Below are positions 14,719-63,304 of a stretch of 64,000 bases of DNA, one piece after another (position 1 is the first letter of the stretch; each line of letters opens with the position of its first letter). The notes beneath the pieces were generated by a model, which ran no database searches, was not told where the DNA came from, and saw nothing but the letters and a program-made list of their open reading frames with translations. Location of the stretch: contig CM049308.1 in assembly GCA_026874595.1 (NCBI GenBank), positions 26,522,367 to 26,586,366 on the forward strand, in the 5' to 3' direction. Both the position numbers and the translations under genes were made by a program. The stretch is from Sipunculus nudus. Lineage: Eukaryota > Annelida > Sipuncula > Golfingiida > Sipunculidae.

Positions 14719-15228
14719 CTACTCCAACTTGGCCTAACATTGTCTTAGGAAATATCGGACCAGTGCTAGACTACAGAGGTGTGACAATCTTCGGAGGTCC
14801 GTCCTTCTCTGGCCCAGGGGCTGTAATGGAGTGGAGATTCTTTGCCAAGACCATTGGCACCATCACATTTGCGATCTTCCGGCCAGATGGAGATGACCCA
14901 ACAAAATTTGTTGTGATTGGTATGAACACAGTGCCTGTTATGCAGCCAGGTCTCAACGTGATCAAAGTCCCTGCAGAACTCCAAATTATTGTTAACACTG
15001 GAGATCTAATGGGAGTGATGTTCCCGCAGACTTTTGACGCAGAAGCACTCGGAATCATTGCCATTGGAGTTGAAGATGACGTTAGTCCAGATGTTCCCGC
15101 TGATGCTATGGTGCCTTACTTCACTGTGAACATGAATACTGAAGATTTTGACGCGCCTGATATTGAAATCACAGCTACTATTGGAACTCAGAATGTATAC
15201 CCTGCTGTTATGCCTTCAACAGTGTCAG
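14719..15228 (+). CDS. VWDE-like exon 6: unassigned 'GD' domain, copy 1
   Basis: About 170 residues in one exon, phase 1 to 1, acceptor TTTGTTTCAG, donor GTATGT. It is a member of a repeated domain with landmarks: an aromatic-rich strand (MEWRFFAKTIGTITFAIFRP), a strand ending in the Ile-Gly of VVIGMNTVPV, a central strand leading to GDLMG, then an Ile-rich strand and an acidic tail. This copy is divergent: FRP stands in place of WRP, and the HY and IIP of the common GDxxGxHY...IIP motif are not kept. There is no cysteine in the core. The composition fits an extracellular beta sandwich. I do not recognise the family; the function is unknown. Confidence 0.9.
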
Positions 15229-15329
15229 GTATGTATACAGCATTTATATTTAAAGGGATCTATTCACTTCCCAGGTATGTTAAATATACTGTGTTATTAC
15301 AGTGTTATCTCCTTCAAATATTATGTACA

Positions 15330-16250
15330 GTTAGATGTTGCTTACCTCTCCTACCATACCCAAACCTGGGTTGCTGGCACTTTGTTCTTTTTAGAAATTA
15401 AGGGAAAATCTCCATTTTTCCATTGAAAACATAATGTTACACTTAAAATCTGCCTACTATTAAAACCACTGTTTACAGCTGGCACAATTATTCCTCTAAA
15501 TATTTCCTGTGTAAACGTTAAAAATTATGTCAATGTTGTGTAAATCATAGAAGTTATTAACACTAACATATTGTACCTTGTCAAAACATCATTAAATATA
15601 TTCCTCACTTTCCATGGTAATTATAGAAGCTAAAGAGCAGTTTTCAAGTATTTAAAAATATTTTTTTTTTATTTAATTGTATGCCAGAAATAAGGTCAAG
15701 ATTTAATGGATTTCTTAGTTATTAGCAAAATTGTACAATCATTACCTTAAATTTTGCCCAACTCTGACCATGGCACATTTTCCCTATAAGGCCAAAAAAA
15801 ATTAAAGGTATGGTTCTCAGGCACCGCCCGCATTAATTTTAAACCCCCGCATCAAAAATTTTTATTTTAATTTTCAATGAAAACTTTCCAATTTTGAGCT
15901 GCTGCCTCTCTGACATTTCTTTCAAGAAGATAAAACCATACAATTTCCTTTGTTTTGTAGTGCTTTTACTTATTTAGTAAAATAAAACTGTTATTTTCAT
16001 GCTTTTCCCTTATCATTTGACATTTTTATCGAAACATACCAAAAAATTTAAATTAAAAAAAGCGCCCGCCCGCATTGATTTATGAAAAAAAGTGCCTGAG
16101 AACCATACCTTTTTTTTTAATTTGGCCTAAGCACTGTTGATTTAATTTTCATATCATGCTCACAGGAGCCAGCTAGTGTACCTCTCTCCTCTCTCCAATT
16201 GTCAGGTTCCATACAGTTTCCATAAACAAGTTATAATTTCTATGTTAAAT
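15330..16250 (+). repeat. Degraded GCTCAGCTGACTG-family element, interrupted by MITE copy B
   Basis: It aligns in blocks with 35816-36450 and 58036-58660: CTCCTACCATACCCAAACCT, AGAAATTAAGGGAAAATCTC, TATTCCTCTAAATAT, then TTTTGCCCAACTCTGACCAT and, after the inserted MITE, TTGATTTAATTTTCATATCA. The left terminal part is lost or unrecognisable. The rest of this intron, about 16250-17264, shows nothing recognisable. Confidence 0.7.
15790..16127 (+). mobile_element. Harbinger-like MITE, copy B (nested, with empty-site evidence)
   Basis: 338 bases. The ends are GGCCAAAAAAAATTAAAGG then TATGGTTCTCAGGCAC, and GTGCCTGAGAACCATA then TTAATTTGGCC. TAA flanks both sides. The same host repeat without the insertion is present at 36400-36420 and 58620-58640, where a single TAA stands at the equivalent position (CCTGTAAGTACC and CTCGTAAGTA). 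This confirms both boundaries and the 3-bp duplication. Confidence 0.88.
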
Positions 16251-17264
16251 TCAGATATTATTTCAAGACTAATGATACATTTTGATAAAAGTCCTAATGT
16301 AGTCATTTGTCCTTAAAATGATATAATAGTGCTTGTCAAGTGAGGAATGTTCATGATGTGAGGAATTCCCATTTGCCAGATACAGAAGAGCTGGAAACTT
16401 TGTGTTATTATTTTTAAATGTGTTAAATTCTCAGTACTTAAAAAGTTGAGCAATCTTTAATTATAAGCATGGTGATATTGTTTATATGATAAACCCTCAC
16501 TTCAAAATGACAGTGTGTATGCCAGATTTAAATAGGTGTTTTTTTTATCAATTTTACTTATTTATTTCAGTTAAAAATGAAACATTGAAACATTTAATTT
16601 AATTTGGAAACCTCTTGTCACGCCATTGTACAAAACTTATTTGAAATAGTGGTCCATGGTGGTCTAAATGGAAGCAGCATATGAACATAAACAAAGAAAG
16701 AGAACTTAGAATTCCCATTTTGTGATATGTTTATTATAAATGTAGATTGAAGTCATGATAAGGAGTACTCAAGCCAGAGCCAGGTGATGCTTATGGAGTG
16801 CTCAAATTCAAATCTTGCTACCCATTTCAGCCCTAGCTTTTAATAAGACTTTTACGATTTACTATTGAACTGATACATCACAATACAAATTCAAGAGTTG
16901 TAGTATTATCATCAGATGTCCCTTTATCGAAGCATTGACAGTATTTGATTATCCAATAGGAAGTAACATCTAACATTTAAAATAGTCTCTCAGCAACATG
17001 TCAGACATATGAGTGTGTAATTTCACTAATAAGAGACCAATTTAACAACACCCTAATGCCTAATTGTTTGTATATATATTTAATGGGTATGAAAATATCT
17101 TATGAGCATAAGCTTATATACATTTCTGAATACAAGGAAAAATTTGACTTGGAATTTAAATTGTAAAGTATCAAATACGTATGGTGTAGTGTATAATGAA
17201 TAAAGTATAGTAATAGTATCGTTACAGACCTAACTTTTGATAATGTAGTATTTAAATATTTCAG

Positions 17265-17759
17265 GAGCTATACCTCTGCCTGTTCCGTCACTGACTGCGT
17301 CTAAGGTTGCCGTGAAACCAGCACTGATGATTTTCCCCGGCCTCGCCTTCCCGGCGGGGGACACTATCAAAGGATTCTCATTTTATGCCATGGCTAAAGG
17401 AGACTTCTTTGTCAGTTTTTGGAGAGTAGATCCTAATGATGCTAAAGTCTACATTCTCATTGGTAAAATCTTGGTTACTGTAAAGAAACCGGGTAAGGTA
17501 GACTTCATGGCCACACCAGACACCTGGGTCGGTGTTATGCCCGGTGACGTGATTGGTATCCATTTCCCAGATGGCGCCACTGAGTCACCGTTGTCCATTT
17601 TTGATTCATCAGATCCAGGAGATGTGGATCCAGCAACCTTGATCCCTGTCCTTGAAGGAAAGTTGTTTGACGGAAAATTAACCATTGATTTCAAAGCAAA
17701 ACTCAAACCTGCAAAGAATGTTCAGCGTATGCCAGCTTTGACTGTTATAACTACCATTG
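17265..17759 (+). CDS. VWDE-like exon 7: unassigned 'GD' domain, copy 2
   Basis: About 165 residues, phase 1 to 1, acceptor AATATTTCAG, donor GTAAGT. It shows the repeat landmarks clearly: GFSFYAMAKGDFFVSFWRV, then YILIGKILVTV, then VGVMPGDVIGIHFPDG, and a tail rich in Lys and Pro. It belongs to the same family as exons 6 and 24-28. It is the second and last GD domain before the LamG-like exon, so this array has two units where the next has at least five. The 2-kb intron before it holds a degenerate repeat with a nested MITE. Confidence 0.91.
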
Positions 17760-18002
17760 GTAAGTTACCACTTATTATACTGTTTTTATTTAAAATAATT
17801 GATTAATTTCTATCAATGTATAAACCTAGGTCTAAATTTGTTGAAGTAACTCAGTTTTGCTCAGCAAAACTACTGTGACTGATTAAAGTATTTGGGATGT
17901 ACCCTGTGACCCCCAGGTTGCTGCATGCTAGTTATGCACATCATTTTGATAAATGTTTTGCATTGTGGATCTGCTTTAGGTCTTTCTAATTGAATAATAG
18001 AC

Positions 18003-18990
18003 TAATTATGCCCCCCCCCCAATGTTGTTTTCAGTGCCATCATCTGTCTCTGATATCTTGTGAACACAATAATTTTTGAAGGGCTGTATATTTTCCTCCT
18101 AAATTTGTAACACACATTGTTCCTATGAAAATCCTTGAAATCCATTGACCTTGACCTTCATCTTCAGGGTCAAATTTGCTGCAATGTTAAAGTTTTGTTA
18201 ACCCCAGACTTTTGAAGGGCTTTATATTTGGTCCTTAAAAAGTTACACAAATTATTCCTACCAATTTGAATGCAAAATCAAAAACCTGTGACCTTGACAA
18301 GGATCTTCAAGGTCAAATCAGCAAAATTAAAGTTATGGTCTTGTGAATGCAGTAACTTTTGAAGGGCTCCACTTTTTGTCCACAAATTTGGTACATCGAT
18401 TGTTCCTACCAAGTTTTTGGCTGAGTTCGAAAACTGGTGACCTTCACCAGGATCTTCAAGGTCCAATCTGCGAAAATGTAAAATTATTGTGAACTCCATA
18501 ACTTTTAAAGGGCTCCGCATTTTGTCCTTAAATTGGTTACAGAAATTGTCCCTTCTAAGTTGTTGGGCAAATTTAAAAACCAGTGACCTTGACCAGGAGC
18601 TTCAAGGTCAAATCAGCTGAATTATAGTTATTGTCTTGAAAATGGGATAACTTTTGAAGGGCTTCAAATTTTCCTCTAAAATTTGAAACACTCATTTTTC
18701 CAACCAAAATCTGGTACAAATTGGAAATCCTGTGAACTTAACCTACCTTACTCTTTAAGTTCAAGGTCAAATTTATGCTATTCTAGGATTATAACTTTAG
18801 AAGTACTGAAGATTTTTTCTTCAAATTTGACCCAGCAGTTCATTCTGCCTAAAATCTCTGAGAAGTTCAAAAAGACTTGACCTTGATCTTTAAGGTCAAG
18901 TCTCCTGAAATCTAGAATCATTGTTTTGAGTGCCTATTTTATCGCTAATGTTTTGGGATGGCCCATAGTGGTTAGACATAGCCATTCTTG
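18003..18990. repeat. 'GTGACCTTGACC' tandem-repeat element, poly-C start
   Basis: After TATG and ten C residues (18011-18020) come about seven diverged units of roughly 120 bases, each with AACTTTTGAAGGGCT, AAATTTGGTACA, GTGACCTTGACC, ATCTTCAAGGTCAAATC. The same family is at 27509-28240, about 40980-41425 and 54540-54990. The 27.5-kb copy keeps a poly-G and GGCATA at the right end, forming inverted ends with TATG-poly-C. Confidence 0.75.
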
Positions 18991-19321
18991 TTGTTATTGG
19001 ATTCTTAAATTAATGTACCTTTTAAACATTCAAAATTTTCAGAATGTTAAAATATCATATGAAAATTATAAAAATTTTTAAAAAATGCTTTCCAACAGAA
19101 ACGACACTGTACCAGGTTTAAAATAATTTGTGCTTTATGGGATCTGTTTTGAATTTAAAGCAACTATTGGATTGATTCTAGGGGTTTTAGCCAATTGTGC
19201 TAGCTTAAATACCTAGGCCATTGTCTGCCTAAGTCATCCATCCAGTAACTATGTCATACTGGGTCTACTGACATACTTTTTGTGCAGCAATGGTCAATAG
19301 TTTGCCATTTGGTTTTTGCAG

Positions 19322-19930
19322 ATATCTCCCTTGCTGGAGCATTCCCTCTGGATGCCACGACAGCAGGTGCTGACATAGGAAACAAGGGCGTAAACGCAGA
19401 GTTGACCAATGTGGTTTTTGGAGAGGGCCCAACAGCGAGTGGCGGTATCGTTCTTACTGGAGGAGTGGACAGCTTTGTGAACATCCCCAACACAGGCTCT
19501 CTAGATGTCAAGAAGTCCTTGAGCTTGATGATTAGCGTGAAGGTAGAAGGCACAGGTCCCATCTTGAACTTTGGTGCCGACAAACCCGGCGTCAGTTTAG
19601 AAATCACAGCTCCAGGAACTTTGGTCTTCAATCTCATCAGCGAAGGTGGCATTGCCAAAGGGGCTGTCACCGTTACCATAGAAATGAATGTCTGGGTTCA
19701 AATCACAGCTACTTATGACTATGACAAGGGAGTAGCTATGATTCTGCTGGATGGTAAGAAGGCAGGTTCAGCAAAGGTTGGGTCCTTCTTCTTGGCAACT
19801 GGCTTTGATGTGAGGCTGGGTGCTACAAGTTTCCACAAGATTGGGTTTAAGGGAGGAATCGCAAATCTGCAGATTTTCAGCAGAGTAGTCAGCACCAAGG
19901 AAGTGACAACCCTTACACTGGCTGCTGCAA
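19322..19930 (+). CDS. VWDE-like exon 8: LamG/concanavalin-like domain
   Basis: The longest exon here, 203 codons, phase 1 to 1, acceptor GGTTTTTGCAG, donor GTAAGT. The pattern is that of a LamG/pentraxin-like jelly roll: an opening FPLDATTAGADIGN, SFVNIPNTGSLDVKKSLSL, then WVQITATYDYDKG, AMILLDGKKAGS, VRLGAT and a closing FKGGIANLQIFSRVVS. These correspond to the usual strand order, including W-x-x-I-x-x-x-Y and the G-x-I-x-x-L-x-I-F end. Such domains bind carbohydrate or protein ligands, often with calcium; no specific site can be named here. No cysteines are seen. It sits between the GD pair and the next VWDE unit. Confidence 0.87.
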
Positions 19931-20400
19931 GTAAGTGAGAAAACAGACAGGGTATTCCTATACTTAAAACCGTGAAATTCTTTTAAACTTTTATTGTATT
20001 TTAAAGGCCTTGAAAGTACTTGTACTGAGCTATTTTTGACAATTTTCTTGAACAGACATTAAATTTTATTCATTCTAATTGTTTGCTCATTAAACTTAAT
20101 GACATAATCATGCAATGACATGACTCAAATCTTTCTTACCAAATTACATGCAATAATTATATTACTAGGCTTTTAGATGGCAGCACCAGTTAGCCTATAA
20201 CAAGCATACTTTGTGAAAACGTTCAGTATGGTGGCTTTGACCAAAAACCGTCAAACTATTTGATGAAAACACTACTCTTGCAATTTGTATACATATAAAG
20301 AAAGTTGCTAAATTGGTCTACTAAGATGGTCTGTGTCTGTCTTTCCATCCTTCCATCTGTCTTGTCCGCCCAATCACTGATGCCATGTTACTTAGTTGTA

Positions 20401-31903: not shown

Positions 31904-32006
31904 GTCATTCTTCCAACTGGCACCCGCGTCATCATTATGCTTGGAGCACAGGGCTTCTTGACAGTCACTGTCAAGGCTGGTATTCACGACAAAGAGAACG
32001 TTGCAG
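31904..32006 (+). CDS. VWDE-like exon 15: VWD domain, core strands
   Basis: Phase 0 to 1, acceptor CCTATATCAG, donor GTTTGT. It encodes VILPTGTRVIIMLGAQGFLT and VTVKAGIHDKENVAG, the buried strands preceding the conserved GLCG turn. Hydrophobic alternation is strong and there is no cysteine. The frame closes with exon 16 to give VAGLCG. Confidence 0.92.
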
Positions 32007-33210
32007 GTTTGTTACCTGTTTTAATATAAATCTACAGGGCTTCAAATGTTAAAAGAAGAGAAATTTTTCAAGGGATAGTAACTTAAAGCTTTTCTATATG
32101 TAACTATTTATTTTGCTTCATTTCAGGGTGTATTTTTTTCTAATGCTGGCTTAACTAAGTATGTTCACCTGCATAATTCCATTCTAGCTTGGGACAACAT
32201 GATATTGCAGTAGCACATTCTTCCTCTTTATATTATATCCTGGTGTTAACCAGGCCCGGTGGCAACTGCACCTGCGAGATCTGGGTGTGCAATATTTCCA
32301 ATTGCTGGGTCATACCATTGAGTCATCCCCAAAGGAAGCACAGCTTTGTGAGTGAAACACAGCTGTGGGGCCGGTCTTCCCAGCAATTCGGTCACCCTGG
32401 GTGTTCGCCGACTGTGAAAAATATCATCTATTAGAACTCACAATCACAGAAGCAGGTTATCTTAGGGTTTAGTTTGTGTGATTGTTCAGTATGACAGTGC
32501 CCCCTGAATGATAAGTAAAGAGATTTCTGATTAAAATGTGCTTTTTTGAAGATTAAAACTTTTAATCATTGCTTAAGTAAGACTCAGATATTTAAGGATT
32601 TCCACTGCTCATCACATTTTAATATACTTGGGGAAATAAGAACATTTGATACTTACCTTTAAGATGAAGGAATTAGTTGTTAAATCATTGATCTCCCAAT
32701 CAGGAATCCTACAGGTGTACAAATTTCCCAGAAAACAATTTGATGTCACAGTCTTCTGTTCACATATTGAGTCTATTCTGGTCACTGACAAGTGGTTAAT
32801 CACGGAATACACAGCATTTTTTCTGGCACAAGTATTTCCTTCTAGTGAGGAGTGTAAATGTGAGGAACTTTCAAGTATAGGCCAATCTCATAGATGTATC
32901 AGGTAATGGTATGGCCAGTGTGCATCTTGCCATCTGTCTGTCTGTCTGTCTTTTACACTTTTGTTTCACCAAAATAGCATACTAGGCATCCGATGGATTT
33001 TCATGAAACTCTCAAGAGTTATTTATCAATTAAATATGTCATGTTACATGATTCTCAGGAAAATCTGTCAATAATTAATGGGTCAAAAGACAGGCAAATC
33101 TTGTTGTCTTAGAGTGCTCTTGTTGCAAGATAAATATATCTATCCCAGGATAAGAATGATTAATGTAAATTTGACATATAATAAATATACTTGTGTTTTT
33201 CTCTTTTCAG
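32007..33210 (+). other. Intron 15, mostly unrecognised
   Basis: A GC-richer island at about 32245-32420 (CCAGGCCCGGTGGCAACTG, GTGGGGCCGGTCTTCCCAG) may be a repeat of unknown class. A short CTGT microsatellite lies at 32935-32950. Nothing coding is supported. Confidence 0.5.
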
Positions 33211-33325
33211 GATTGTGTGGAACATTTGATGGTGACACTTCAAATGATCTTACCATGCCAGATGGCAAAGTCTCAACAGAAGAAGCTGATTTGAGATACC
33301 CTGATAAGTTCTCCCTGTCTTGGCA
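33211..33325 (+). CDS. VWDE-like exon 16: VWD domain, GLCG calcium loop
   Basis: Phase 1 to 2, acceptor CTCTTTTCAG, donor GTAAGT. It encodes the (G)LCGTFDGDTSNDLTMPDGK loop. In VWD domains the GLCG-x-x-[DN]-G-D-x-x-[ND]-D stretch binds calcium, and Asp, Asn and Asp positions are all present here, so the site looks intact. It ends in FSLSWQ, the conserved tryptophan strand near the end of VWD domains. Confidence 0.94.
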
Positions 33326-41663: not shown

Positions 41664-41841
41664 ATCACTAAAAATGACGATTGGATAAACAACATCATCG
41701 ATGTGATCACGGAGCACTGCGTGGATATTGCTTCAACTGATACCACCTTGTTTCAAGTGACTGCAACTGGCCCAGCCCCACCAAGCTTCATTGCAAACAT
41801 ATGTCCAAGAGGCTGCAGTGGACAAGGAACATGTGCAGCTG
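41664..41841 (+). CDS. VWDE-like exon 20: linker and first half of EGF domain (paralogue of exon 2)
   Basis: Phase 0 to 1, acceptor TGCTTTATCCAG, donor GTATGT. It opens ITKNDDWINNIIDVITEHC, then a Thr- and Pro-containing linker, then CPRGCSGQGTC, the first three EGF cysteines. Together with exon 21 the spacing is C-x3-C-x5-C-x4-C-x1-C-x8-C, identical to exons 2-3, and the intron interrupts at the same codon. Confidence 0.9.
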
Positions 41842-41950
41842 GTATGTTTAAAGTCACTGATGTATTTAAACTTGACTTCATAACTGAGGGGTTAAAATTT
41901 TCAAAATTTCCAAGTTTTCAGTGTTTCCCTATGGTCCTATTTTCATAATT

Positions 41951-42796
41951 AGGGCCCCGCTTGACAAGGGCTGCCCTATAGTGATCACCGTGTCAGTCCA
42001 TTCTTCCGTCCATCCGTACTTCCATCCTTCTGTCAGTGACACTTTCTTTCCCGCGCGATAACTCAACAACAACATACTGCAGCTTTCCAAAATTCACAGG
42101 GATGATTAGTACCTATGAGGGCTCCAGACCTATCAAATAACAGACATGTTGGAATTCCAGTATGGCAGCCACAGCCCTATTATTGATTTTCTTTCACATG
42201 CAATAACTCAACAACAACATACTGCAGCTTTCCAAAATTCACAGGGATGATAAGTACCTATGAGGGCTCTAGACCTATTGAATTTCAAACCTGTCGGAAT
42301 TTAATATGGCAGCCTAAGCCCAAATGCTGAATTTCTTTCGCACGCAATTACTCAACAACAAAATACTGCAGCTTTCCCAAATTCACAGGGATGATTGGTA
42401 CCTATGAGGGCTCCAGACCTATCCAGTTACAGACATGTCAGAATTCCAATATGGCCGCCACAGCCTAATCGCTCATTTTCTATCGCACGCAATAACTCAA
42501 CAACAACCTACTGCAGCTTTCCCTATTTCACAGGGATCATTGGTGCCTATGAGGTCTCCAGACCTGTTGAATTACAGACTTGCTCAAAATCTAATATGGC
42601 TAACCAACTACATTCAGTGTTTATCTGTTGCACACATTATTTCAGACATATCTTCTTTAATATCATTTGATCCAGTAGAATTTTTCCCTCATGCATATGG
42701 ATAAAAACCTGTTTCTGTTTGTCATATTTGTCAAATTTAACTTTATTTTTCACCCATATGTAAACAAGTCAAGCACTAGCAGAAACGCGGGGCCCT
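41951..42796 (+). mobile_element. TIR element with four 145-bp tandem units (AGGGCCCCGC family)
   Basis: The left end AGGGCCCCGC (41951) and right end GCGGGGCCCT (42787-42796) are exact inverted repeats. After the left end comes TCCGTCCATCCG. ACTCAACAACAACATACTGC recurs at 42061, 42206, 42350 and 42495 with 144-145-base spacing. Units include ACAGGGATGATTAGTACCTA. This is a third terminal-sequence family with the same architecture as 4021-7450 and 21331-22335. Confidence 0.78.
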
Positions 42797-43329
42797 TCAA
42801 GGACTTTTGTCCAACCACATCTAGTCTCACCATATATTTCAAACCTACTCAAAGTTATCAGTTATTATATGAATTAATTATTAATTGGACTGGATCCCTA
42901 ATCACTCTCAAAGGATTTTATTCATTAATGGCATATAAGTTGAGAGATCTTAGATTTGAAAAATTTGATAATTCATTTAAATAGCATGCAGTCTCTGAAC
43001 ACGAAAGATCTATTTTTGTTTATATACCATTGTTCTACCTTTTGACTTGCTTTCCATTATATGGCCTCTTATTCACAGAGGTTTTATTTTCATGATAATT
43101 CACCTTTCACAAATATTGCTAATTGGAAACTCTCACAAATGAACAGGAAACCACAGTACCAACCTTAAGTATTATATAAAACATTTTCCCAGAATGAGTT
43201 TTGTAAGACATTTGAAAGGGATACAGTGTGAAGAAATCGCAGGTTTATTGTTAGCCGTGAATTCATGCCTCAGTAGGTATTAATATTGGGCTGGTAAACT
43301 TAACTTGAGTCATGATATAAAACACAGGG

Positions 43330-43851
43330 GGAATGCACTGCAAATCACTCATATCTGGGCAGTAGTTTGACTTATCTTCCTAAAATTTTGCATATTTATA
43401 CATATTGGATAGCTTTCTGGATATTGTGGCAGGTGGTGCCACCTCCATTAACATTAAGCTGCAGACATCCACGCTTATATCTCAGGATTTGATAGACGTA
43501 TTGGGCTAACATTTTGCCTGAGTATAGATCTTGCATAGCTCTATAACTTACACAATTAGCTTTCAAACATTTTTGCATGGTATCCATCTATTCATCTGCC
43601 TAGGGTAAAAATCACTCATCTCAGCAGTGGTTTTACTTATCCACCTGTAATTATGTATACATATTGGATAGCTTTCTCTTCCAAATAACAGGTGGCACCA
43701 CCTACAATCATGTTTACATGGCAGACATCCATGCTAATATGCAACACATCTCACTCTTTTTCCCTTTGCCACTCAATCCATGCCTCACTCTACCGGCCAA
43801 CTTTGATTTCAGCGGATACACATATTCGCTGGTTGACTGCCCTTATTCTAG
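43330..43851 (+). mobile_element. Helitron-like element, copy 5 (5'-truncated, old)
   Basis: The right half of the family is recognisable: CACTCATATCTGGGCAG, GGTGGTGCCACCTCC, GACATCCATGCTAATATGCA, CACTCAATCCATGCCTCACT, then a decayed hairpin and TTATT-CTAG followed by T. The left half is missing. The intron after it to 44332 is AT-rich and unrecognised. Confidence 0.7.
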
Positions 43852-44332
43852 TTTTAAACAACTTTATAATAATTTCATACTTTTTAGAAAATGTTGATTG
43901 TTTTTCTCTCACAAATTTGTTTTTATGTTTAGATTGTCATTTTGTGACTATAAAAAGAAACACTTTATTGTAACACTTGAATAAAAGTTATTTTTGTTAA
44001 AATTTATAATCAGCTCATACTTATTATTAATAATTTAATTTTTATCTTAGAAATATGTACAGACATTAAGTGACTACACCTTATATTGAAAAACAATTAT
44101 TTAGAAAGATATCTTGTCATCTCCGGAATATAGCTTATTTTATATGCAAATAATATTTATCATTTTAATGTACTTTTTTACTCTTTTTATTAAAACAAAT
44201 TTGCACATGTTCAGTGTGTGAAGCAGCACTGTATGGTTAAAAATGGTTATAAAAATTTTAACAAATTTAAAAAAAAAAAAATTTACAGTAAATGTTAAAT
44301 TTTATTTTAAAAAAATTACTTTATCTTGGCAG

Positions 44333-44517
44333 GTATCTGTAAGTGTGATGAAGGCTTCATGGGCCCAGACTGCTCAATCAAAGTTGGTGTAGTCCCAGAA
44401 ATTGTGACCGAGCCTGTTATCTGTGATCGCAGCCTTGGACCATGTGTGGAGATAACAATTAGCGGATCAAATCTCATACCATCACCCGAAGCTGCATGTG
44501 CCTTCACTGAAATGAAG
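44333..44517 (+). CDS. VWDE-like exon 21: end of EGF and start of beta-rich segment (paralogue of exon 3)
   Basis: Phase 1 to 0, acceptor TTATCTTGGCAG, donor GTAACA. ICKCDEGFMGPDC completes the EGF domain. After VGVVPEIVTEPVI comes CDRSLGPC (C-x6-C), then VEITISGSNLIP and a further cysteine in EAACAF. The ISGSNL stretch is like the first strand and loop of TIG/IPT folds. The paralogue exon 3 has VIEIDGDEFANVP in the same place. Confidence 0.9.
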
Positions 44518-48553: not shown

Positions 48554-49164
48554 GTAAGGATTTTATTCTTTTGTTTTTATTTATAATTTTCTAGGGTGGT
48601 ATATTTTAAGTGGTCAGTTTTGTTTTTATATTTTTATGAGATAACCACCTCCAATTCAGTATGCAAAGCTTAACCAATTTTACCCAGATGTTCTTTTTAT
48701 GGGCTCTCTACCATGGTGTACTAGTTAATTGACCTAACCATGAACTCTATGTGACCTTAGTAGCATATTCATTTAATGAATTATCATAAGCAGAGTAGTT
48801 GCAAGCAACCAATCAAATAACTGTTGGCAATGCAAAACAGTCTATCAACTGACAAGTTCAAAACTGGCATTATTTTTGCAACTCTCCCAAACAGAACACA
48901 TGTATCCTTCACCAGTATCACTCTCCGCATGTTTTTCAGGGATATATTATATTTCAGGGAAAATATAAAAAATTTCTAGGTCACAGGTTGCAGAAGCTGT
49001 CCTGCTGAGTGAATAATAATATCCCTACTTGCACTGAATTCAAATGAGACATATAATCGAAAATATGGCAAAACACTTACAAAACAATGATTGTGATGTA
49101 GCAGATTCTAGCTGCTGATGTCATTCAATGTGACGGCATATGCTACTGTACCCAAAGTGCCAGG

Positions 49165-52100
49165 ATAGTCCAGTACTGGAGCCAGGGGTTACCCCTCACT
49201 AAATGGTCTACTTGCTCAAGGATAGGCCAGTACTGGAGCCAGGGGATACCCTTCACTAAGTGGTCTACTTGCTCAAGGATAGGCCAGTACTGGAGCCAGG
49301 GGTTACCCCTCACTAAGTGGTCTACTTGCTCAAGGATAGGCCAGTACTGGAGCCAGGGGTGACCCCTCACTAATTGGTCTACTTGCTCAAGGATAGGCCA
49401 GTACTGGAGCCAGGGGATACCCTTCACTAAGTGGTCTACTTGCTCAAGGATAGGCCAGTACTGGAGCCAGGGGTGACCCCTCACTAATTGGTCTACTTGC
49501 TCAAGGATAGGCCAGTACTGGAGCCAGGGGATACCCTTCACTAAGTGGTCTACTTGCTCAAGGATAGGCCAGTACTGGAGCCAGGGGTGACCCCTCACTA
49601 AGTGGTCTACTTGTTCAATGATAGGCCAGTACTGGAGCCAGGGGTTACCCCTCACTAAGTGGTCTACTTGCTCAAGGATAGGCCAGCACTGGAGCCAGGG
49701 GTTACCCCTCACTAAGTGGTCTACTTGCTCAAGGATAGGCCAGTACTGGAGCCAGGGGTTACCCCTCACTAAGTGGTCTACTTGCTCAAGGATAGGCCAG
49801 TACTGGAGCCAGGGGTGACCCCTCACTAAGTGGTCTACTTGCTCAAGGATAGGCCAGCACTGGAGCCAGGGGTGACCCCTCACTAATTGGTCTACTTGCT
49901 CGTGGATAGGCCAGTACTGGAGCCAGGGGTTACCCCTCACTAAGTGGTCTACTTGCTCAAGGATAGGCCAGTACTGGAGCCAGGGGTGACCCCTCACTAA
50001 GTGGTCTACTTGCTCAAGGATAGGCCAGTACTGGAGCCAGGGGTTACCCCTCACTAAGTGGTCTACTTGCTAATGGATAGGCCAGTACTGGAGCCAGGGG
50101 ATACCCCTCACTAAGTGGTCTACTTGCTCAAGGATAGGCCAGCACTGGAGCCAGGGGTTACCCCTCACTAAGTGGTCTACTTGCTCAAGGATAGGCCAGC
50201 ACTGGAGCCAGGGGTTACCCCTCACTAAGTGGTCTACTTGCTCAAGGATAGGCCAGCACTGGAGCCAGGGGTTACCCCTCACTAAGTGGTCTACTTGCTC
50301 AAGGATAGGCCAGTACTGGAGCCAGGGGATACCCCTCACTAAGTGGTCTACTTGCTCAAGGATAGGCCAGCACTGGAGCCAGGGGTTACCCCTCACTAAG
50401 TGGTCTACTTGCTCAAGGATAGGCCAGTACTGGAGCCAGGGGTGACCCCTCACTAAGTGGTCTACTTGCTCAAGGATAGGCCAGTATTGGAGCCAGGGGT
50501 TACCCCTCACTAAGTGGTCTACTTGCTCAAGGATAGGCCAGTACTGGAGCCAGGGGTTACCCCTCACTAAGTGGTCTACTTGCTCAAGGATAGGCCAGTA
50601 CTGGAGCCAGGGGTTACCCCTCACTAAGTGGTCTACTTGCTCAAGGATAGGCCAGCACTGGAGCCAGGGGTTATCCCTCACTAAGTGGTCTACTTGCTCA
50701 AGGATAGGCCAGTACTGGAGCCAGGGGTGACCCCTCACTAAGTGGTCTACTTGCTCAAGGATAGGCCAGTACTGGAGCCAGGGGTTACCCCTCACTAAGT
50801 GGTCTACTTGCTCAAGGATAGGCCAGCACTGGAGCCAGGGGTGACCCCTCACTAAGTGGTCTACTTGTTCAATGATAGGCCAGTACTGGAGCCAGGGGTT
50901 ACCCCTCACTAAGTGGTCTACTTGCTCAAGGATAGGCCAGTACTGGAGCCAGGGGTTACCCCTCACTAAGTGGTCTACTTGCTCAAGGATAGGCCAGTAC
51001 TGGAGCCAGGGGTTACCCCTCACTAAGTGGTCTACTTGCTCAATGATTGGCAAGCACTGGAGCCAGGGGTTACCCCTCACTAAGTGGTGTGCTTGCTCAA
51101 TGATAGGCCAGTACTGGAGCCAGGGGTTACCCCTCACTAAGTGGTCTACTTGCTCAAGGATAGGCCAGTACTGGAGCCAGGGGATACCCCTCACTAAGTG
51201 GTCTACTTGCTCAAGGATAGGCCAGCACTGGAGCCAGGGGTGACCCCTCACTAAGTGGTCTACTTGCTCAAGGATAGGCCAGTACTGGAGCCAGGGGTGA
51301 CCCCTCACTAAGTGGTCTACTTGCTCAAGGATAGGCCAGTACTGGAGCCAGGGGTTACCCCTCACTAAGTGGTCTACTTGCTCAAGGATAGGCCAGCACT
51401 GGAGCCAGGGGTTACCCCTCACTAAGTGGTCTACTTGCTAAAGGATAGGCCAGCACTGGAGCCAGGGGTTACCCCTCACTAAGTGGTCTACTTGCTCAAG
51501 GATAGGCCAGCACTGGAGCCAGGGGTTACCCCTCACTAAGTGGTCTACTTGCTCAAGGATAGGCCAGTACTGGAGCCAGGGGATACCCCTCACTAAGTGG
51601 TCTACTTGCTCAAGGATAGGCCAGCACTGGAGCCAGGGGTTACCCCTCACTAAGTGGTCTACTTGCTCAAGGATAGGCCAGCACTGGAGCCAGGGGTTAC
51701 CCCTCAGTAAGTGGTCTACTTGCTCAAGGATAGGCCAGCACTGGAGCCAGGGGTTACCCCTCACTAAGTGGTCTACTTGCTCAAGGATAGGCCAGTACTG
51801 GAGCCAGGGGATACCCCTCACTAAGTGGTCTACTTGCTCAAGGATAGGCCAGCACTGGAGCCAGGGGTTACCCCTCACTAAGTGGTCTACTTGCTCAAGG
51901 ATAGGCCAGCACTGGAGCCAGGGGTGACCCCTCACTAAGTGGTCTACTTGCTCAAGGATAGGCCAGTACTGGAGCCAGGGGTTACCCCTCACTAAGTGGT
52001 CTACTTGCTCAAGGATAGGCCAGTACTGGAGCCAGGGGTTACCCCTCACTAAGTGGTCTACTTGCTCAAGGATAGGCCAGTACTGGAGCCAGGGGTTACC

Positions 52101-52797
52101 CCTCACTAAGTGGTCTACTTGCTCAAGGATAGGCCAGCACTGGAGCCAGGGGTTACCCCTCACTAAGTGGTCTACTTGCTCAAGGATAGGCCAGTACTGG
52201 AGCCAGGGGTGACCCCTCACTAAGTGGTCTACTTGCTCAAGGATAGGCCAGTACTGGAGCCAGGGGTTACCCCTCACTAAGTGGTCTACTTGCTCAAGGA
52301 TAGGCCAGTACTGGAGCCAGGGGTTACCCCTCACTAAGTGGTCTACTTGCTCAAGGATAGGCCAGTACTGGAGCCAGGGGTTACCCCTCACTAAGTGGTC
52401 TACTCGCTCAAGGATAGGCCAGTACTGGAGCCAGGGGTGACCCCTCACTAAGTGGTCTACTTGGTCAAGGATAGGCCAGTACTGGAGCCAGGGGTTACCC
52501 CTCAATAAGTGGTCTACTTGCTCAAGGATAGGCCAGCACTGGAGCCAGGGGTGACCCCTCACTAAGTGGTCTACTTGTTCAATGATAGGCCAGTACTGGA
52601 GCCAGGGGTTACCCCTCACTAAGTGGTCTACTTGCTCAAGGATAGGCCAGTACTGGAGCCAGGGGTTACCCCTCACTAAGTGGTCTACTTGCTCAATGAT
52701 AGGCAAGCACTGGAGCCAGGGGTTACCCCTCACTAAGTGGTGTGCTTGCTCAATGATAGGCCAGTACTGGAGCCAGGGGTTACCCCTCACTAAGTGG
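49165..52797. repeat. Minisatellite, 57-bp unit, about 64 copies, with higher-order structure
   Basis: The unit GGATAGGCCAGTACTGGAGC, CAGGGGTTACCCCTCACTAA, GTGGTCTACTTGCTCAA occurs about 64 times. Three variable sites recur: GTAC/GCAC, GGGGTTA/GGGGTGA/GGGGATA and CAAGG/CAATG. A rare variant pair (GGCAAGCACTGG followed by TGGTGTGCTTGC) occurs at 51051 and 52704, exactly 29 units apart, showing a duplicated block. The unit carries CCAGTACTGG, a perfect palindrome, and AGGGGTTACCCCT, a hairpin. The antisense reading of 19 residues per unit (LVRGNPWLQYWPILEQVDH) is open for hundreds of codons only because 57 is divisible by three. Confidence 0.97.
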
Positions 52798-53030
52798 TGT
52801 TTTGCAAAAGGAATTATAGGCTACTGACTGCTAAGCACATGTATAGTGTTTAAAGCTATTTGAGCTTTTAGCAATAGAAGTCAAGTGTGAAATACACGGT
52901 GTAATCAAACCTCCTCTGAACAGGTTAAGTAATTAAAAGTGAAACCAACTGAAACCAGTACCCCTACAAAATATCCAAAATTAATATACACAAACACACA
53001 CACATATATAGAGATAAATAGATAGATAGG

Positions 53031-53715: not shown

Positions 53716-53768
53716 AGTATTTGTTGATGGACATTATTTTATCTGACAGGACTGTCTTTATTTTTCAG

Positions 53769-53883
53769 CCTAACACATGCTTTATCGATGGAGAATGCTA
53801 CATGCCTCTTGATCCTGATCCTGGAAATCCACTCAAGGCCTGTAATCCGACATCCAGCACAGATACATTCGTTGAAGTCGGAG
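53769..53883 (+). CDS. VWDE-like exon 23: small Cys module (paralogue of exon 5)
   Basis: 115 bases, phase 0 to 1, acceptor TTTATTTTTCAG, donor GTCAGT. It encodes PNTCFIDGECYMPLDPDPG then NPLKACNPTSSTDTFVEVG, with C-x5-C-x14-C as in exon 5. The C-x-I-x-G-x-CY form is even closer to the vertebrate VWDE module than exon 5. It closes the second duplicated block. The donor was chosen for equal length with exon 5 and for the frame into exon 24. Confidence 0.88.
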
Positions 53884-57006: not shown

Positions 57007-57501
57007 ATAAACCCATGGCTTTCCCTCCAATGCCAGTCGTGAAACTGTCATACACACCAGACAGGAAGCTGATCGCATTCAAGGGCATATCCTTCATGAA
57101 CCTTGCTGTGACCAGTTCGTTCAAATTCTACGCCCTCACCAATGGAGTGTTTTACGTTATCTATACAGCTGTAGTTTCAGGCAAGCTCATGGTTCTTGGA
57201 ACTAACAAGGTCTTTGCCCCCAATGCCGGTGAGGTCACTGTGAACATCGATCCATCAGTTCGACTTATCGGAGCGCCAGGGCTTACCATTGGTATTGCTT
57301 ATGATGAAGACCCGACAACGAAATTTGGTATCATACCAGTTGAGCTTTTGACGAAGAAGCCTTGCTGTGGCTTGACCTCCAATATGTTCTATGATGTTCT
57401 CAAATTTGATGCATATTTCTCAGATATCGGAAAAGGTGACCTACCACCCATCTCACTTGACGTCAAGTTGACTGTTGCCTTACAGCCGAATCCTTCCACA
57501 T
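57007..57501 (+). CDS. VWDE-like exon 25: unassigned 'GD' domain, copy 4
   Basis: 165 residues, phase 1 to 1, acceptor TTGCTTCTTGCAG, donor GTAAGT. Landmarks: SSFKFYALTNGVFYVIYTAV and a strand before GLTIGIAYDEDPTTKFGIIP. The usual Trp-Arg is replaced and GD is changed to GL, so this copy is divergent at the two most conserved points. It carries KKPCCGLTSNMFYDVLKF after IIPVE, a motif shared with exons 26 and 27. Confidence 0.9.
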
Positions 57502-57573
57502 GTAAGTACCAGAACTTGTGTAATTAATTATACTATTCAAATAAATTAAACTTAATAAGTCTAGAGATAATGA

Positions 57574-57640
57574 CCTGGGGTCAATTCAGATTTTTCAATT
57601 CCAATTCAGTTCCAGTTTATCAAAAAATTTTTATCAAACT
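57574..57640. repeat. 'CAATTCAGTTCCAG' repeat fragment
   Basis: GGGGTCAATTCAGATTTTTC and CCAATTCAGTTCCAGTTTAT match the start of the repeat at 175-480. Confidence 0.55.
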
Positions 57641-58035: not shown

Positions 58036-58660
58036 TGTTTTTTAGCTCAGCTGACTTATGAGTCATCTTAGCTTTAGTCGTGGTTCATTGTCCGTCATCC
58101 ATAGATGTGGCACATTTTGAAACCGTAAGACCTAGGAATCCAAAATTCTGCATGTTAGATGACCCCAAAATCTCCTACCAAGCTGAAAACTGTCCTTCGC
58201 GACTTCGTTCCTTCGAGAAATTAAGGAAAAACCTCAATTTTTTATTGAAAACCTATTTTCACACTACAGGACTGCCTAATATCAAAACCACTCATCTGTT
58301 TTTCCTCATATTTACCATAAATATTCCTCTATATAGTTCCTATGTACATGCCAGAAATTAGGTCTGTATTATATAATTTAAAAAAGTTGTGGGCCCAAAC
58401 ATATTGCACTTTGTAAAAAATCAGGAAAAAATATTTGGTCACATTTACACAAAAAAACGTTAAAGCTAGGCACTTTTTTTTCAGTTATATAACTTTAATT
58501 AATCAAAATTTAATTGTATACCCAAAATTAGATCAAAATCTTTTAAATTTTTAAAAATATAAGCAAAAATATAAAATTGGTATCTTAAATTTTGCCCAAA
58601 TTTGACCATGGCACATTTTTTTCTCGTAAGTATATTTAATTTATTTTTCACAGCTGGGAT
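58036..58660 (+). mobile_element. GCTCAGCTGACTG-family element, second long left part
   Basis: TTTTTTAGCTCAGCTGACTTA, GATGTGGCACATTTTGAAAC, CTCCTACCAAGCTGAAAACT, TTACCATAAATATTCCTCTA and TTTGACCATGGCACATTTTT are collinear with 35815-36450. No right terminal module was found before exon 26, which starts about 40 bases later. Confidence 0.72.
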
Positions 58661-58703
58661 ACATGTGGATTTATGTGGAATTCTGAATGTTTTTTCTTTG
58701 CAG

Positions 58704-59186
58704 ACTTTGGTCCCGTTCCTGTGATCCCAATTAGCCCTGAATTTGCAGAAGTACCAGGACAGGATTTGTATGTGTTTACTGACCTGAAGTTCCACGATCA
58801 CGCTCACTTCGTAGGATTTACATTCATTAGCCTGGGCGCTGGTGATATTTACTTTGGCCTCTGGCGTCTGGAGGATGAGAAGTACACACTGATAACAGAC
58901 ATGAAGGTCACAAGCTTCGGTGCTGGTAAAATCATGGTGCTCATCCGTCCCCAGATTGTGGTGCAGCCCGGTGATATGATCGGCATCCACTACCCTAAAT
59001 ATGTCAAAAAACAACCAGGGCTGGTCCCATTTGCCTCTAAGAAGAAGCTCTGCTGCGGACTCACCGAGGACCACCTGTCTGGATACTTGAAGCTGCCTAT
59101 TGGTGCTGACAAGATTACAGTGCAACCCAAGTTCAAGAAGCCTGCATCTGGCTTACTTCCAGCCATCCAGCTTCTATCCATTAAAG
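58704..59186 (+). CDS. VWDE-like exon 26: unassigned 'GD' domain, copy 5
   Basis: 161 residues, phase 1 to 1, acceptor TTTTTTCTTTGCAG, donor GTATTT. This is a canonical copy: VGFTFISLGAGDIYFGLWRL, YTLITDMKVTSFGAGKI, VVQPGDMIGIHYPKYV, then GLVPF and KKKLCCGLTEDHLSGYLKL. The adjacent cysteines after the P-F strand suggest a vicinal pair or pairing with a neighbouring domain. It serves as a good seed for searching the family. Confidence 0.92.
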
Positions 59187-60057
59187 GTATTTGTCTTTTC
59201 ATTATTGTATACTCTCCTAAATCATATGTCATATATGGCCTAGATTTCACAGAACTGGTAGAAATTCACAGCTTGTGAGAGCCTCCACAAATTTCTGTTA
59301 CAGAAAGGCATCACACCATAAAATTGCAGTATAATTTGATAAATTTGTTCCAGAAAATCATTCAGAAAGTTGGAGTCCACTTATACTCTAGTATAAGTAT
59401 ACAAATATATTTGCCAGACTTGGCAAACATGTCGGCTTTGGTCTCAAACTACATCAATTATGCCATGTCTGACTCCTCACCTCACGATGTCATTCCAGTT
59501 GAATTAGGTCGGTACTTGGCTGTTTGAATAAATAAATATATTTACATCCAAATAGCAATGTAATTCATTTATTTTGATATGATGCTCATTAAATAAATGA
59601 AAAAGTTAAAAAAACTGAGCAAAACACTTGCCCAAATGTTTTCTGCCATTCCCTGTTACCATACAACCAGCATGGTATGACCAGAGGCCCAACACATATG
59701 ATTAACAATAATAGATTGTAGCTAAGTACCAGAAAATAGTTGTAGGCAACCAAAAGTCAGCTTCTGCTTGCCCAGCTTTTGATATGATTGTGTACCTTAA
59801 CCTGAATCTCAACTAATCTTTAATTAGATATTTTATTTCTTGAAGAAATAAAATCATATTGATAATAACTTATTATCTTAAATTACCTATATGTTTATCT
59901 GTACAAATACTTTAGAGAAATTATTTTTAAAAAAAAAGAAAATATTTATAGTCTAAATAAAATCAAATGAGCAACATAAAAATATGGAACACATTTTGTA
60001 TACATCCATTTTGGTTGTTTAGAATCCAAAACAATGTACATGAACTTATTATTCTGT
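59187..60057 (+). other. Intron 26, first part, no recognised content
   Basis: About 870 AT-rich bases after exon 26. No repeat family seen elsewhere is recognised. Confidence 0.5.
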
Positions 60058-61551
60058 TTGATTGATAGATATGCAATTGATTGACAGGGGTGTATATTAT
60101 GTTCTTATTGTATCCGCCAAAACGAAGTTTTGCGGATACTATGTTTTTGACCGGGTTCCTCCGCCGCCCTGGCGTTCATTTCCGGAGAACTCCTCTGAGA
60201 CTACTGGATGGATTTTTCTGAAACTTACACAAATTATGGGGTCACATGTGAACTGGTGCCTAACCAAGTAACCTTGACTTCTGACCTTTCCTCTCTGCCC
60301 AGCGTCCGTTTGTGCGTCTGTTTCCACACATAAACCCACATATCTCGGGAACCGTTTGACCGATCAGGAAAAAAAATTTACCCAAATGTAGCCCTGGGAT
60401 AGCTTTATAACATACACAAAAAAAGGTGGCGCCACCTGCAACCATTTTTGCACTGTGTCCATCTGTTCATCTGCCTTAGGTTTAAATCACTCATATCTCT
60501 ACAGTGGTTTGACTAATTCACCTAAAATTCGGATTGCGTATACATCCTAGATAGCTTTCTTGATTTTATGACAGGTGGCGCCACCTGCATTCACGTTAAC
60601 GCTGCAGACATCAAAGCTCATATCTCGGGAACCGTTTGACCAATCAGGAAAAAAAATTTACACAAATGTAGCCCTTGGATAGCTTTATCACTTACACAAA
60701 AATGGTGGCGCCACCTGTAGCCTTTTTTGCACAGCGTCCATCTGTTTGTCTGCCTTAAGTTAAAATCACTCATATCTCGGCAGTGGTTTGACCAAATTAC
60801 CTGAAATTCGGCATGCGTATACATCCCGCATAGCTTTCTTGATTTTATGACAGGTGGCGCCACCTACATTCACGTTCACGCTGTAGACATCCATGCTTAT
60901 ATCTCCCGACTCGTTCAACCAGTCAGGAAAAAACTTTTACACAAATGTAGCCCTTGGATAGCTTTATAACATACACAAAAATGGTGGTGCCACCTCTAGC
61001 CACTTATGCACAGCGTCCATCTGTTTGTCTGCTGTGGGTTAAAATCACTCATATCTCTGCAATGGTTTGATTTTTCCACATGAAATTTTGCATGTGTATA
61101 CATCTTGGATAGTTTCTCGTTCAAATAACAGATGGCACCACCTACAATCATGTTTATGTGGCAGAGATCCATTCTAATATGTAACACATGTAACTATTTC
61201 CCCTTGCCACTCAATCCATGCCTCACTTCACCCGGTCTTCTCTGATTTTGGGGGATACACGTAGTCGCTTGTCGACTACCCGTATTCTAGTTGATTGAGG
61301 TATTTACATCATGTTCTGATTGATTGACAGGTGTGTACATCATATTATAATTTGATTGACAATGTGTGTATGTCATGTTGTAATTGATTGACAGGTGTGT
61401 ACATTATATTATAATTTGATTGACGGTGTGTCTGTCATGTTGTAATTGATTGACAGGTGTGTACATTATATTATAATTTGATTGACAGTGTGTGTCTGTC
61501 ATTTTGTAATTTATTGACAGTTGTGTACATTATGCTTTATTTGATTGACAG
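60058..61551 (+). repeat. Minisatellite of TTGATTGACAG units, split by a Helitron and ending at the exon 27 acceptor
   Basis: Units of about 31-33 bases alternate in two forms: TTGATTGACAGGTGTGTAC with an ATTATATTATAA tail, and a form with GTGTGTCTGTCATGTTGTAA. TGATTGACAG or a near form ends at 60087, 61330, 61394, 61456, 61520 and 61551. The last is the acceptor of exon 27 (TTGATTGACAG then GTGTCTGG). The array begins at 60058 before the inserted Helitron and resumes at 61291. Confidence 0.88.
60113..61290 (+). mobile_element. Helitron-like element, copy 4 (best preserved)
   Basis: 1178 bases. The 5' end is TC after an A, with an inverted repeat CCAAAACGAAGTTTTGCGGA; the 3' end is hairpin GTAGTCGCTTGTCGACTAC, 7 bases, then CTAG before a T. 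The interior is a series of blocks with TGGTGGCGCCACC and CAGGTGGCGCCACCTG, each followed by a GTTTGCACAG/TTCACGTTCACGCTG-type segment. No coding capacity. It interrupts the TTGATTGACAG array. Confidence 0.85.
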
Positions 61552-62067
61552 GTGTCTGGCCATCCCCACCAGTTCCAATGGGTACATTCCCTGTGAAATC
61601 TCAGCGATATTTGAACATCATGATGGAGCCAAAAATAAAGATTGCTTCCAAGATCTGCGGTTTTAAGTTTATCACTGATGAAGTTGGTGATGCTTACCTC
61701 AGCATCTGGCGCCCAGATTCTACTGGATCTCAGGTGACAAGGGTTGGTTCCATCCGTGTTTTTGTTGACAGCCCTGGAGAACATCACATCAATGTACCAC
61801 TAAACCTGCAAATAGATGCTCAGCCCGGTGACATCACAGGAGTTCATTACCATGATGCCTCTGGCGGTGATGGCATTATACCTTATGCACAGATTGACAA
61901 GACTTCAGGTCCCTCAATATGCTGCGGTGCGAGACCATCCAATATGGCTCCAGTGTTTTACCAGCAACTGAGCGAGGGAGACCTACCCACAGATCATACA
62001 CCAAAGAAAATCGACATCTCCCAAGACTTCCAAAGGGTCATGCCTGTTCGACCAATGGCCTACTTTG
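61552..62067 (+). CDS. VWDE-like exon 27: unassigned 'GD' domain, copy 6
   Basis: 172 residues, phase 1 to 1, donor GTAAGT. The acceptor ATTTGATTGACAG is itself the last unit of a tandem array (61310-61551) with several near-identical AG sites upstream. Protein landmarks: CGFKFITDEVGDAYLSIWRP, VTRVGSIRVFVDSPGEHHI, IDAQPGDITGVHYHDASGG, GIIPY and GPSICCGARPSNMAPVFY. It is the longest GD copy. The intron after it also begins with a tandem array. Confidence 0.91.
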
Positions 62068-62069
62068 GT

Positions 62070-62390
62070 AAGTTAAATAAGTGATTGTAAAGTGATGAAT
62101 GACAGTAAAGTGATGACTGACTGTTAAGTAATGACTGATAGTAAAGTGACAACTGACAGTTAAGTGATGACTGACAGTACAATGATGACAGACAATAGAG
62201 TGCTACTGAAAATAAAGTGTTTATTGACACTAAATGTGATGACTGACTGTTAAGTGATGACTGACTGTAAAGTTATGGTTTATAGTAAAGTAATGATTGA
62301 CTTAAGTGGTAACAGACAGGTGATGACTGACTAAAGTGAATACTGAGACTAAAATGATTATTGATAGTGAAGTGAATGATTGACTGACTA
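62070..62390 (+). repeat. Minisatellite of GTAAAGTGATGACTGACA units directly after the exon 27 donor
   Basis: Roughly sixteen diverged 18-base units start within a few bases of the donor (TTTG then GTAAGTTAAATAAGTGATTG). Units often read AGTAAAGTGATGACTGACA or TTAAGTGATGACTGAC. The remainder of the intron to 62836 is unrecognised apart from a terminal scrap near 62640 resembling the right end of the GCTCAGCTGACTG family. Confidence 0.82.
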
Positions 62391-62836
62391 ACCAGTTTTA
62401 GGGTTGGTTGCATGTGGTCTGAAATTCATCAGACATACAGGAAGATTCTCTGATATGCTGAGTTTTAACAAAATCCCTTTGCACATTGTGGGTATTGTTA
62501 TAAAGTAAACAATTATATTTATGGTAAAGAGATTTGTTTCCTCACTGAGATTTTTCAACAGATTTATTTTCTCTGAGATTTTTTTAATGCTGTTCCACTC
62601 TGACATCTTGGTAGTTTGCTCTTACATTAAAATGAGAAAAGGTCTTTGCTCCTGAGCACCATGACCTATTGGTCACTTCTTTTTATATCAAAATGTGACT
62701 GAACCTGTTCTAGATGTAATCAAAAACAAAATTATTTTGAGTGCATTTCTAATAGTTTTCAGTTCTGATGGAATATGCTGTTTTTATTATCAAATACTTT
62801 GAACAAATTTTATAAGGTTTTGTTTTTCATTTCTAG

Positions 62837-63304
62837 ATCTTCCAGCCCCTGCTGCCCCTGACATGGTTGTAGGTGAATACACTGGCAAGAGTAACCCCAA
62901 ATTCACCGTAGTGAAAGCACCTTTCACGTCCAAGGCTATGGTGACCGGATTCACGTTATACAGCCTTCTTGAAGGCCGAGTCCTGTTTTTGGATATTCTC
63001 CGACCAACGAGTGAAACTGAGGTGGAGATCGTTTGCAGCTACTCACACAAGACAACAGCTACAGGCTTTGTGACCTTTGCCCTCTCTACTGATGAATTCT
63101 GCCCAGTGGAAGTGGGTGACATGTGGGGCGTCCATTACACTGACTCGAAATCCGGAAGCATCATCCCTGTAGAGATGTCTAATGAAGCGCCATACGAGCT
63201 GTTCACTGCTAATACATTTGCAGCTGATGCTGAAGTTGGAGCAACAGTTACAGTCAAATCAGCAGGAAACGGAAACCTTGCTTTATACCCCAGCACAGTT
63301 GGAG
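62837..63304 (+). CDS. VWDE-like exon 28: unassigned 'GD' domain, copy 7
   Basis: 156 residues, phase 1 to 1, acceptor TTTTTCATTTCTAG, donor GTTTGT. Landmarks: VTGFTLYSLLEGRVLFLDIL, RPTSETEVEIVCSYS, CPVEVGDMWGVHYTDSKSG, SIIPVEM. It keeps GD-x-x-G-x-HY and IIP but has LRP for WRP, lacks the CCG motif and has two cysteines elsewhere. The phase-1 end shows that at least one more exon follows beyond 64000; none is visible in the last 700 bases. Confidence 0.9.

Follow-up and report, generated by a model that had tools for sequence, protein, structure and literature searches.

The EGF, Ig, FN3 and CUB domains are class 1-1 mobile modules of animal extracellular proteins. Class 1-1 modules are characterized, in the sections of PMC8001218 that treat them, as shuffled, mostly beta, extracellular domains that intronic recombination can move without breaking the reading frame. 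Here we describe such a module in Sipunculus nudus, where it forms two tandem arrays, one of two and one of five copies, in a 64,000-nucleotide stretch of contig C3 (26522367-26586366; this whole stretch is called the window below). The copies are homologous and are spread through the genome; those in the window are packaged, as read from the DNA, one to an exon with phase 1-1 borders and stand beside domains of extracellular type. The module shares a single exon, phase 1-1, a predicted beta fold and extracellular-type partners with known class 1-1 modules, but its sequence family is not in the Pfam copy that we searched. Among described sequence families, DUF4082 (PF13313), which occurs in bacterial secreted proteins, is similar in length and gave the best profile-profile score of six families compared. 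Domains of phage tails are the nearest by predicted structure, and the lectin-like domain of Cwp84 (Lectin_like, PF18560) is among the top matches of the weaker of two models; the sections of PMC4089489 on the Cwp84 domain name PHR and IFT25 as its fold neighbours. We hold with fair confidence that the module is a mobile extracellular domain of class 1-1, so far undescribed and with a jelly-roll fold like that of carbohydrate-binding modules (CBMs) and lectins, probably a remote relative of DUF4082, arranged in tandem in a large VWD-EGF-LamG protein in which each domain would bind a ligand, most likely a glycan.

The seven window copies, with the scores from profiles that left out the copy in question, are as follows (positions are those of the window).

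14719..15228, + strand: copy c1, one exon, phase 1-1; 65.3 bits
17265..17759, + strand: copy c2, one exon, phase 1-1; 70.8 bits
56000..56506, + strand: copy c3, one exon, phase 1-1; 106.3 bits; bears the confident AlphaFold model
57007..57501, + strand: copy c4, one exon, phase 1-1; 53.8 bits
58704..59186, + strand: copy c5, one exon, phase 1-1, donor less sure; 80.3 bits
61552..62067, + strand: copy c6, one exon, phase 1-1, acceptor disputed by exon chaining; 92.4 bits
62837..63304, + strand: copy c7, one exon, phase 1-1, last copy found; 50.9 bits

A preliminary description of the window had assigned these seven exons to one domain family, and each copy was indeed recovered by a profile of the other six (50.9-106.3 bits; E 7e-15 to 8e-32, scaled to 1000 sequences). 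By comparison, the best of 200 shuffles per copy scored 4.1-12.1 bits, and the best non-copy window frame reached 5.6 bits among 1497 open frames of at least 40 residues taken from the window and eight other stretches. With another profile, the best non-copy window frame scored 6.4 bits (E 0.58). That each domain fills a single exon flanked by phase 1 introns, also part of that description, was read from the DNA: for all seven copies an AG acceptor is available at one end and a GT donor at the other, each splitting a codon after its first base. An exon-chaining script placed identical borders for five of the seven. The c5 and c6 borders are less sure, because the script preferred another border at one end of each, a later donor for c5 (59274) and a later acceptor for c6 (61703). 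The count of two copies against five is correct for the window, and in the 20 kb downstream no open frame of at least 40 residues exceeded 4 bits, although a copy split by an intron could escape such a scan.

The motif proposed for these exons is shared by the copies but is looser than first written. GF at the first site is found in four of the seven, RP in four and GD-x-x-G in six, with c4 deviating, and five alignment columns are invariant. Pairwise identity is low (18-27% to c5 and 22-28% to c3), from which we conclude that the copies are old; in a tree their branches are long (0.6-2.4 changes per site), and no two of them form a recent sister pair.

The array is not special to this gene; it belongs to a family that numbers about 27 copies in this genome. 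Across the 1.43 Gb searched, in 153 contigs, the family has at least 27 copies on seven contigs (C1, C3, C4, C7, C12, C13 and C15), some of them partial and one with an internal stop; the counts come from single-protein searches and are lower bounds. The 27 comprise the seven window copies, one upstream copy, two on C13, one on C15 and 16 stretches found in a second round. A third cluster, 35 kb upstream of the window, holds one clear copy, one weak candidate and one split candidate, and single-protein searches also matched C13 (twice), C15 (twice), C1, C4, C7 and C12. All 16 second-round stretches matched a profile built without them, their best pieces scoring 18.9-53.0 bits. One of them, L163 on C12, matched in two pieces, between which there is a stop. 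The alignment that we call A6 (26 sequences) leaves out L163, and the 23-copy profile used below leaves out the partial copies L168, L169 and L174. In the 23-copy alignment two glycines are kept in every copy, the WR arginine in 22 and tryptophan in 19, the GD glycine and aspartate in 21 each, and the proline of the IP motif in 21.

When splice sites were scored, the top-ranked acceptor and the top-ranked donor both fell in phase 1, at the ends of the domain, in 10 of 18 copies outside the window:

L004, L159-L162, L165, L166 and L171-L173: outside copies with phase 1 at both ends

In the other eight, one good site was absent or ranked second, or the frame ran on downstream (L008). Beside the L174 copy, a stretch resembling the start of a signal peptide was discounted, as it reads as the pyrimidine tract before a phase 1 acceptor. 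In the tree, a branch with full support (100/100) sets the copies on C7, C12 and C4 apart (12 rows). Among 11 copies of this group, the ratio of nonsynonymous to synonymous divergence (dN/dS) was 0.26-0.96 in the 23 of 55 paralogue pairs with a proportion of synonymous differences (pS) below 0.7, and we therefore interpret the group as kept as protein, under loose constraint among its youngest members. Recent tandem arrays of the domain lie at C7:72.37-72.44 Mb and C12:52.50-52.53 Mb, with dN/dS of 0.43-0.96 among the four C7 copies and 0.70 in a C12 pair; these arrays are possibly fast-evolving recognition clusters.

Searches against named families left the domain unassigned, as the preliminary description had done. 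We found no significant match to it in Pfam, NCBIfam or the PDB sequences. When 26 family members were compared with 24,736 Pfam models at E values up to 10, the best match was DUF4082 at E 0.046, below the 28.4-bit cut-off, so no existing family matched all copies significantly. No other Pfam family had matches from more than one of the 26 members; DUF4082 had two. No copy had a Pfam hidden Markov model (HMM) match to C1q, LamG or CUB, the names that had been offered as possibilities, nor to Lectin_like. The PHROGs gave no match below E 0.05 (best 0.051), and scans of bacterial and viral contigs with single proteins or a close alignment, which reach close relatives only, found no relative. 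Weak single matches to HphA_N (0.24), Tudor (0.22), an NCBIfam lyase (0.016), a PHROG (0.051) and cytochrome c (0.66) were taken as chance. No description of the domain was found in title-level literature listings. The sequence family looks new and is without a Pfam entry, although the fold is a common one.

DUF4082 has the same motif order as the module, and the two families were therefore compared. A DNA pattern search of bacterial contigs gave at least 120 stretches, 93 of them in frame, and a motif filter kept 69 as the DUF4082 set. Of the leftover in-frame stretches, 6 served as CBM6 controls and 14 as other controls, and 4 were unused. Pfam confirmed all four members that were checked. 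All 69 scored about 160 bits or more with a profile of 31 DUF4082 stretches (alignment A7), and none lay in a control locus. The pattern matches were found in streptomycetes, rhizobia and others, sometimes two per locus.

Profile-profile alignment with hhalign gives a weak signal of a relationship. The 23-copy profile scored 25.1 against DUF4082 over 126 columns, and none of 200 column shuffles scored as high (maximum 20.4). The C7, C12 and C4 group alone scored 23.6, again above all 200 shuffles (maximum 22.3), and A6 against A7 scored 28.2. The same 23-copy profile scored about 9.7-14.3, roughly shuffle level, against sets of F5/8C (9 sequences), C1q (9), PHR (2), CBM6 (6) and LamG (1). In nine-member subsets of DUF4082, 20 draws scored 17.6-28.8, and 12 of these exceeded the highest shuffle (20.4). 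HMM scores across the two families lay above the 95th shuffle percentile for 42 of 69 DUF4082 sequences and 11 of 23 copies, whereas none of the 20 controls (6 CBM6 and 14 others) scored above zero with the module profile, and reversed sequences were also without effect. The two families share the order of their elements: F...G-x-[IV]-x-G-x-R-F-Y, an LW/IWRP strand, a strand after a glycine, V-x-x-G and a final strand. They differ in that DUF4082 has GTLLA and GWQ, which had served to pick its sequences, where the module has YRLxGxT and GxH, and in that DUF4082 is bacterial and the sequence match is far below the Pfam cut-off.

Several results weigh against this kinship. The hhalign probability was low throughout (1.9% for 11 copies, 8.7% for 23 copies and 22% for A6 against A7). 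An 11-copy profile scored 19.6, which one of 200 column shuffles equalled or exceeded, and 8 of the 20 nine-member subsets fell below the highest shuffle. Median HMM scores across the families were only 0.6 and 0.0 bits, the sequences inside each compared set were not independent, and HMM searches of the genome with DUF4082 and Lectin_like missed all copies. An alternative is that the likeness to DUF4082 reflects convergent strand patterns, the family being a metazoan invention without a traceable bacterial relative. Besides the low hhalign probability, this account gains from the possibility that column shuffles flatter the DUF4082 score, because they keep composition but lose strand periodicity. 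DUF4082 also scored 31.4 against CBM6; we set this score aside because one DNA pattern had picked both sets. Against convergence, the five other beta-sandwich sets and the reversed sequences gave no such effect, and the order of motifs is preserved in the 23-copy alignment as far as the last strand. Convergence is a serious possibility, if not the probable one. We regard the module as probably remote kin of DUF4082 rather than a member, with a sequence signal that is weak but consistent in register. A search of PDB sequences with the DUF4082 profile brought up designed WD40/propeller proteins, over short repeats and at E 6e-6 at best, together with antibody chains and a single subunit of NADH dehydrogenase; we took all of these as spurious.

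The predicted fold of the module is an all-beta jelly roll. Two AlphaFold runs, on c3 and c5, used only the seven window copies. The best of five c3 models was all beta, with a predicted local distance difference test (pLDDT) score of 87.8 and a predicted template modelling (pTM) score of 0.85, and the c5 model was also all beta (pLDDT 70.6, pTM 0.70). A structural aligner ranked phage baseplate, central-fibre and tail-tip domains first for the c3 model. These domains (phi812, Douge and Bxb1) matched over nearly the whole module (Z 9.6-10.5, root-mean-square deviation (rmsd) 3.2-4.1, 145-153 residues aligned), led by the phi812 baseplate (Z 10.5, rmsd 3.2, 145 aligned), with the Bxb1 tail tip at Z 9.6 (rmsd 3.7, 149 aligned). 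They differ from the module in having 8-14% identity to it, in being parts of viral tails and in the lack of a PHROG match below E 0.05. A cyanophage capsid protein and the domains of carbohydrate and polyvinyl-alcohol esterases came next (Z 7.8-8.5), including an acetylxylan esterase (Z 8.4, rmsd 3.5, 142 aligned). Lower neighbours, at values of Z under 8 that mean little singly, were PHR (Z 6.7, rmsd 3.9, 124 aligned), fucose-binding modules and lectinolysin (Z about 6; one fucose-binding module at Z 6.1, rmsd 3.1, 101 aligned), and F5/8C, CBM32 and SUN domains (Z 5-6). The Cwp84 lectin-like domain, itself a jelly roll, was among the top matches of the weaker c5 model (Z 8.1, rmsd 3.3, 131 aligned) but was absent from the best 50 rows for c3. 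LamG, C1q and CUB were absent from those 50 rows too, which does not by itself exclude them. Foldseek against viral models let two pass, the best at E 2.8e-5.

Some of these structural results also call for caution. The five c3 models spread widely in pLDDT (87.8, 74.7, 58.5, 56.3 and 56.1), Foldseek against the PDB at E values up to 0.001 returned no chain for either model, and a Z of about 10 is not far above the 7-8 that is usual for models without relatives. Since most neighbours, as classed from their names in the list, are CBM-like jelly rolls, the confident c3 model suggests a common CBM- or lectin-like fold of this kind. Structure prediction, which the preliminary description had proposed as a test for an undescribed family, was thus favourable in part: there was no family match and the c3 model was confidently all beta, but the predicted fold is not new.

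The nature of the fold leaves room for another function. Jelly rolls also serve protein-protein contacts, and the domain could be a structural spacer or a protein-protein adhesion module in which the jelly roll is a mere scaffold; the arrays would then make a matrix protein longer or stiffer and bind no sugar. Such a role would suit the high divergence of the window copies, and it would suit the neighbours PHR and IFT25, which are intracellular protein-binding domains (for IFT25, see PMC4089489); the same paper calls the function of the similar Cwp84 domain unclear. Set against this, each of the core G, WR, GD..G and IP positions is kept by 19-23 of the 23 copies, and carbohydrate-binding modules and phage tail parts make up many of the nearest folds. 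We consider a spacer or adhesion role rather unlikely. That the module is a divergent member of a named family (C1q, LamG, CUB, F5/8C, PHR or CBM6) beyond the reach of HMMs is very improbable: all of these are beta sandwiches, and PHR and F5/8C appear among the structural neighbours, but there was no Pfam match (CUB being compared through Pfam only), and C1q (PF00386; hhalign 12.3), F5/8 type C (PF00754; 9.7, most of its nine sequences being partial domains) and PHR (PF08005; 14.3, from two sequences) gave neither a sequence profile match nor, in these small sets, a score much beyond the shuffles.

The protein is putatively secreted, and each domain would bind a ligand, a glycan being the likeliest. 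Tandem arrays of two to five jelly rolls could then give multivalent binding in matrix, in mucus or in the recognition of foreign surfaces, and new copies may arise by intronic recombination. A more specific history, which we offer as doubtful, is that an animal recognition domain, now in about 27 copies on seven contigs, derived from a DUF4082-like module of a bacterial or phage adhesin, gained phase 1 introns at its borders and, through exon shuffling and tandem duplications, came to form a multigene family of lectins with arrays, for which the C1q expansion of the same genome is a parallel. The C1q matches number at least 141 genome-wide, many of them clustered, which makes for a large expansion; a C1q expansion is also reported for bivalves. 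As long as a shuffled and expanded extracellular domain of animals is missing from Pfam, the annotation of many proteins stays incomplete, and the profile and predicted fold allow such proteins to be found and tried as glycan-binding. Should the link to DUF4082 be true, it would also give a handle on a bacterial family hardly mentioned in print.

In the window, the copies lie with VWD, EGF and LamG domains. The surrounding features are these.

3433..10277, + strand: exons resembling an earlier EGF-containing unit, upstream of the two-copy array; sub-threshold (DUF7630 E 0.033, EGF_Teneurin E 0.076)
19322..19930, + strand: Laminin_G_3 exon, phase 1-1 (PF13385, E 4.2e-13); next exon found after the two-copy array
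31904..33325, + strand: exons coding for the C-terminal end of a VWD domain (PF00094; E 2.4e-6 for the conceptual translation after splicing)
41664..44517, + strand: exons with a teneurin-type EGF repeat (PF23106, E 2.2e-6) and the start of an Ig-like stretch, the latter our reading without a tool match
53769..53883, + strand: short exon ahead of c3; its open frame and the one that holds a short exon at 12846-12891, ahead of c1, match at 45% across 40 residues (E 3e-8)

The VWD and EGF matches precede the five-copy array, the two-copy array is preceded by the sub-threshold EGF-like exon only, and two EGF stretches lie downstream. We take these surroundings to resemble VWDE proteins. Because the frames that hold the short exons ahead of c1 and c3 are alike, it is probable that the arrays are parts of duplicated super-units, in either a single long gene or adjacent genes.

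A minisatellite at 49162-52798 (57-base units, 63.8 copies, 96% matches) lies before the five-copy array, between predicted exons at 48.5 and 53.8 kb, and is open in several frames because its unit length is a multiple of three. Beside the upstream copy, a cysteine-bearing exon (L029:3227-3574; C3:26485.6 kb) looks PAN/Apple-like by eye, which Pfam does not confirm. Elsewhere in the assembly, F5/8C matches in uninterrupted frames on contigs of high number, at C114:73293 (524 codons) and C119:95009 (1883 codons), are possible bacterial contaminants. Interspersed repeats at C3:26491163-26492985 have copies near 26519829-26521867 and 26558123-26560076 and parts near 26580428 and 26586478; they are often more than 85% alike at the protein level among the matches listed and are probably transposable elements.

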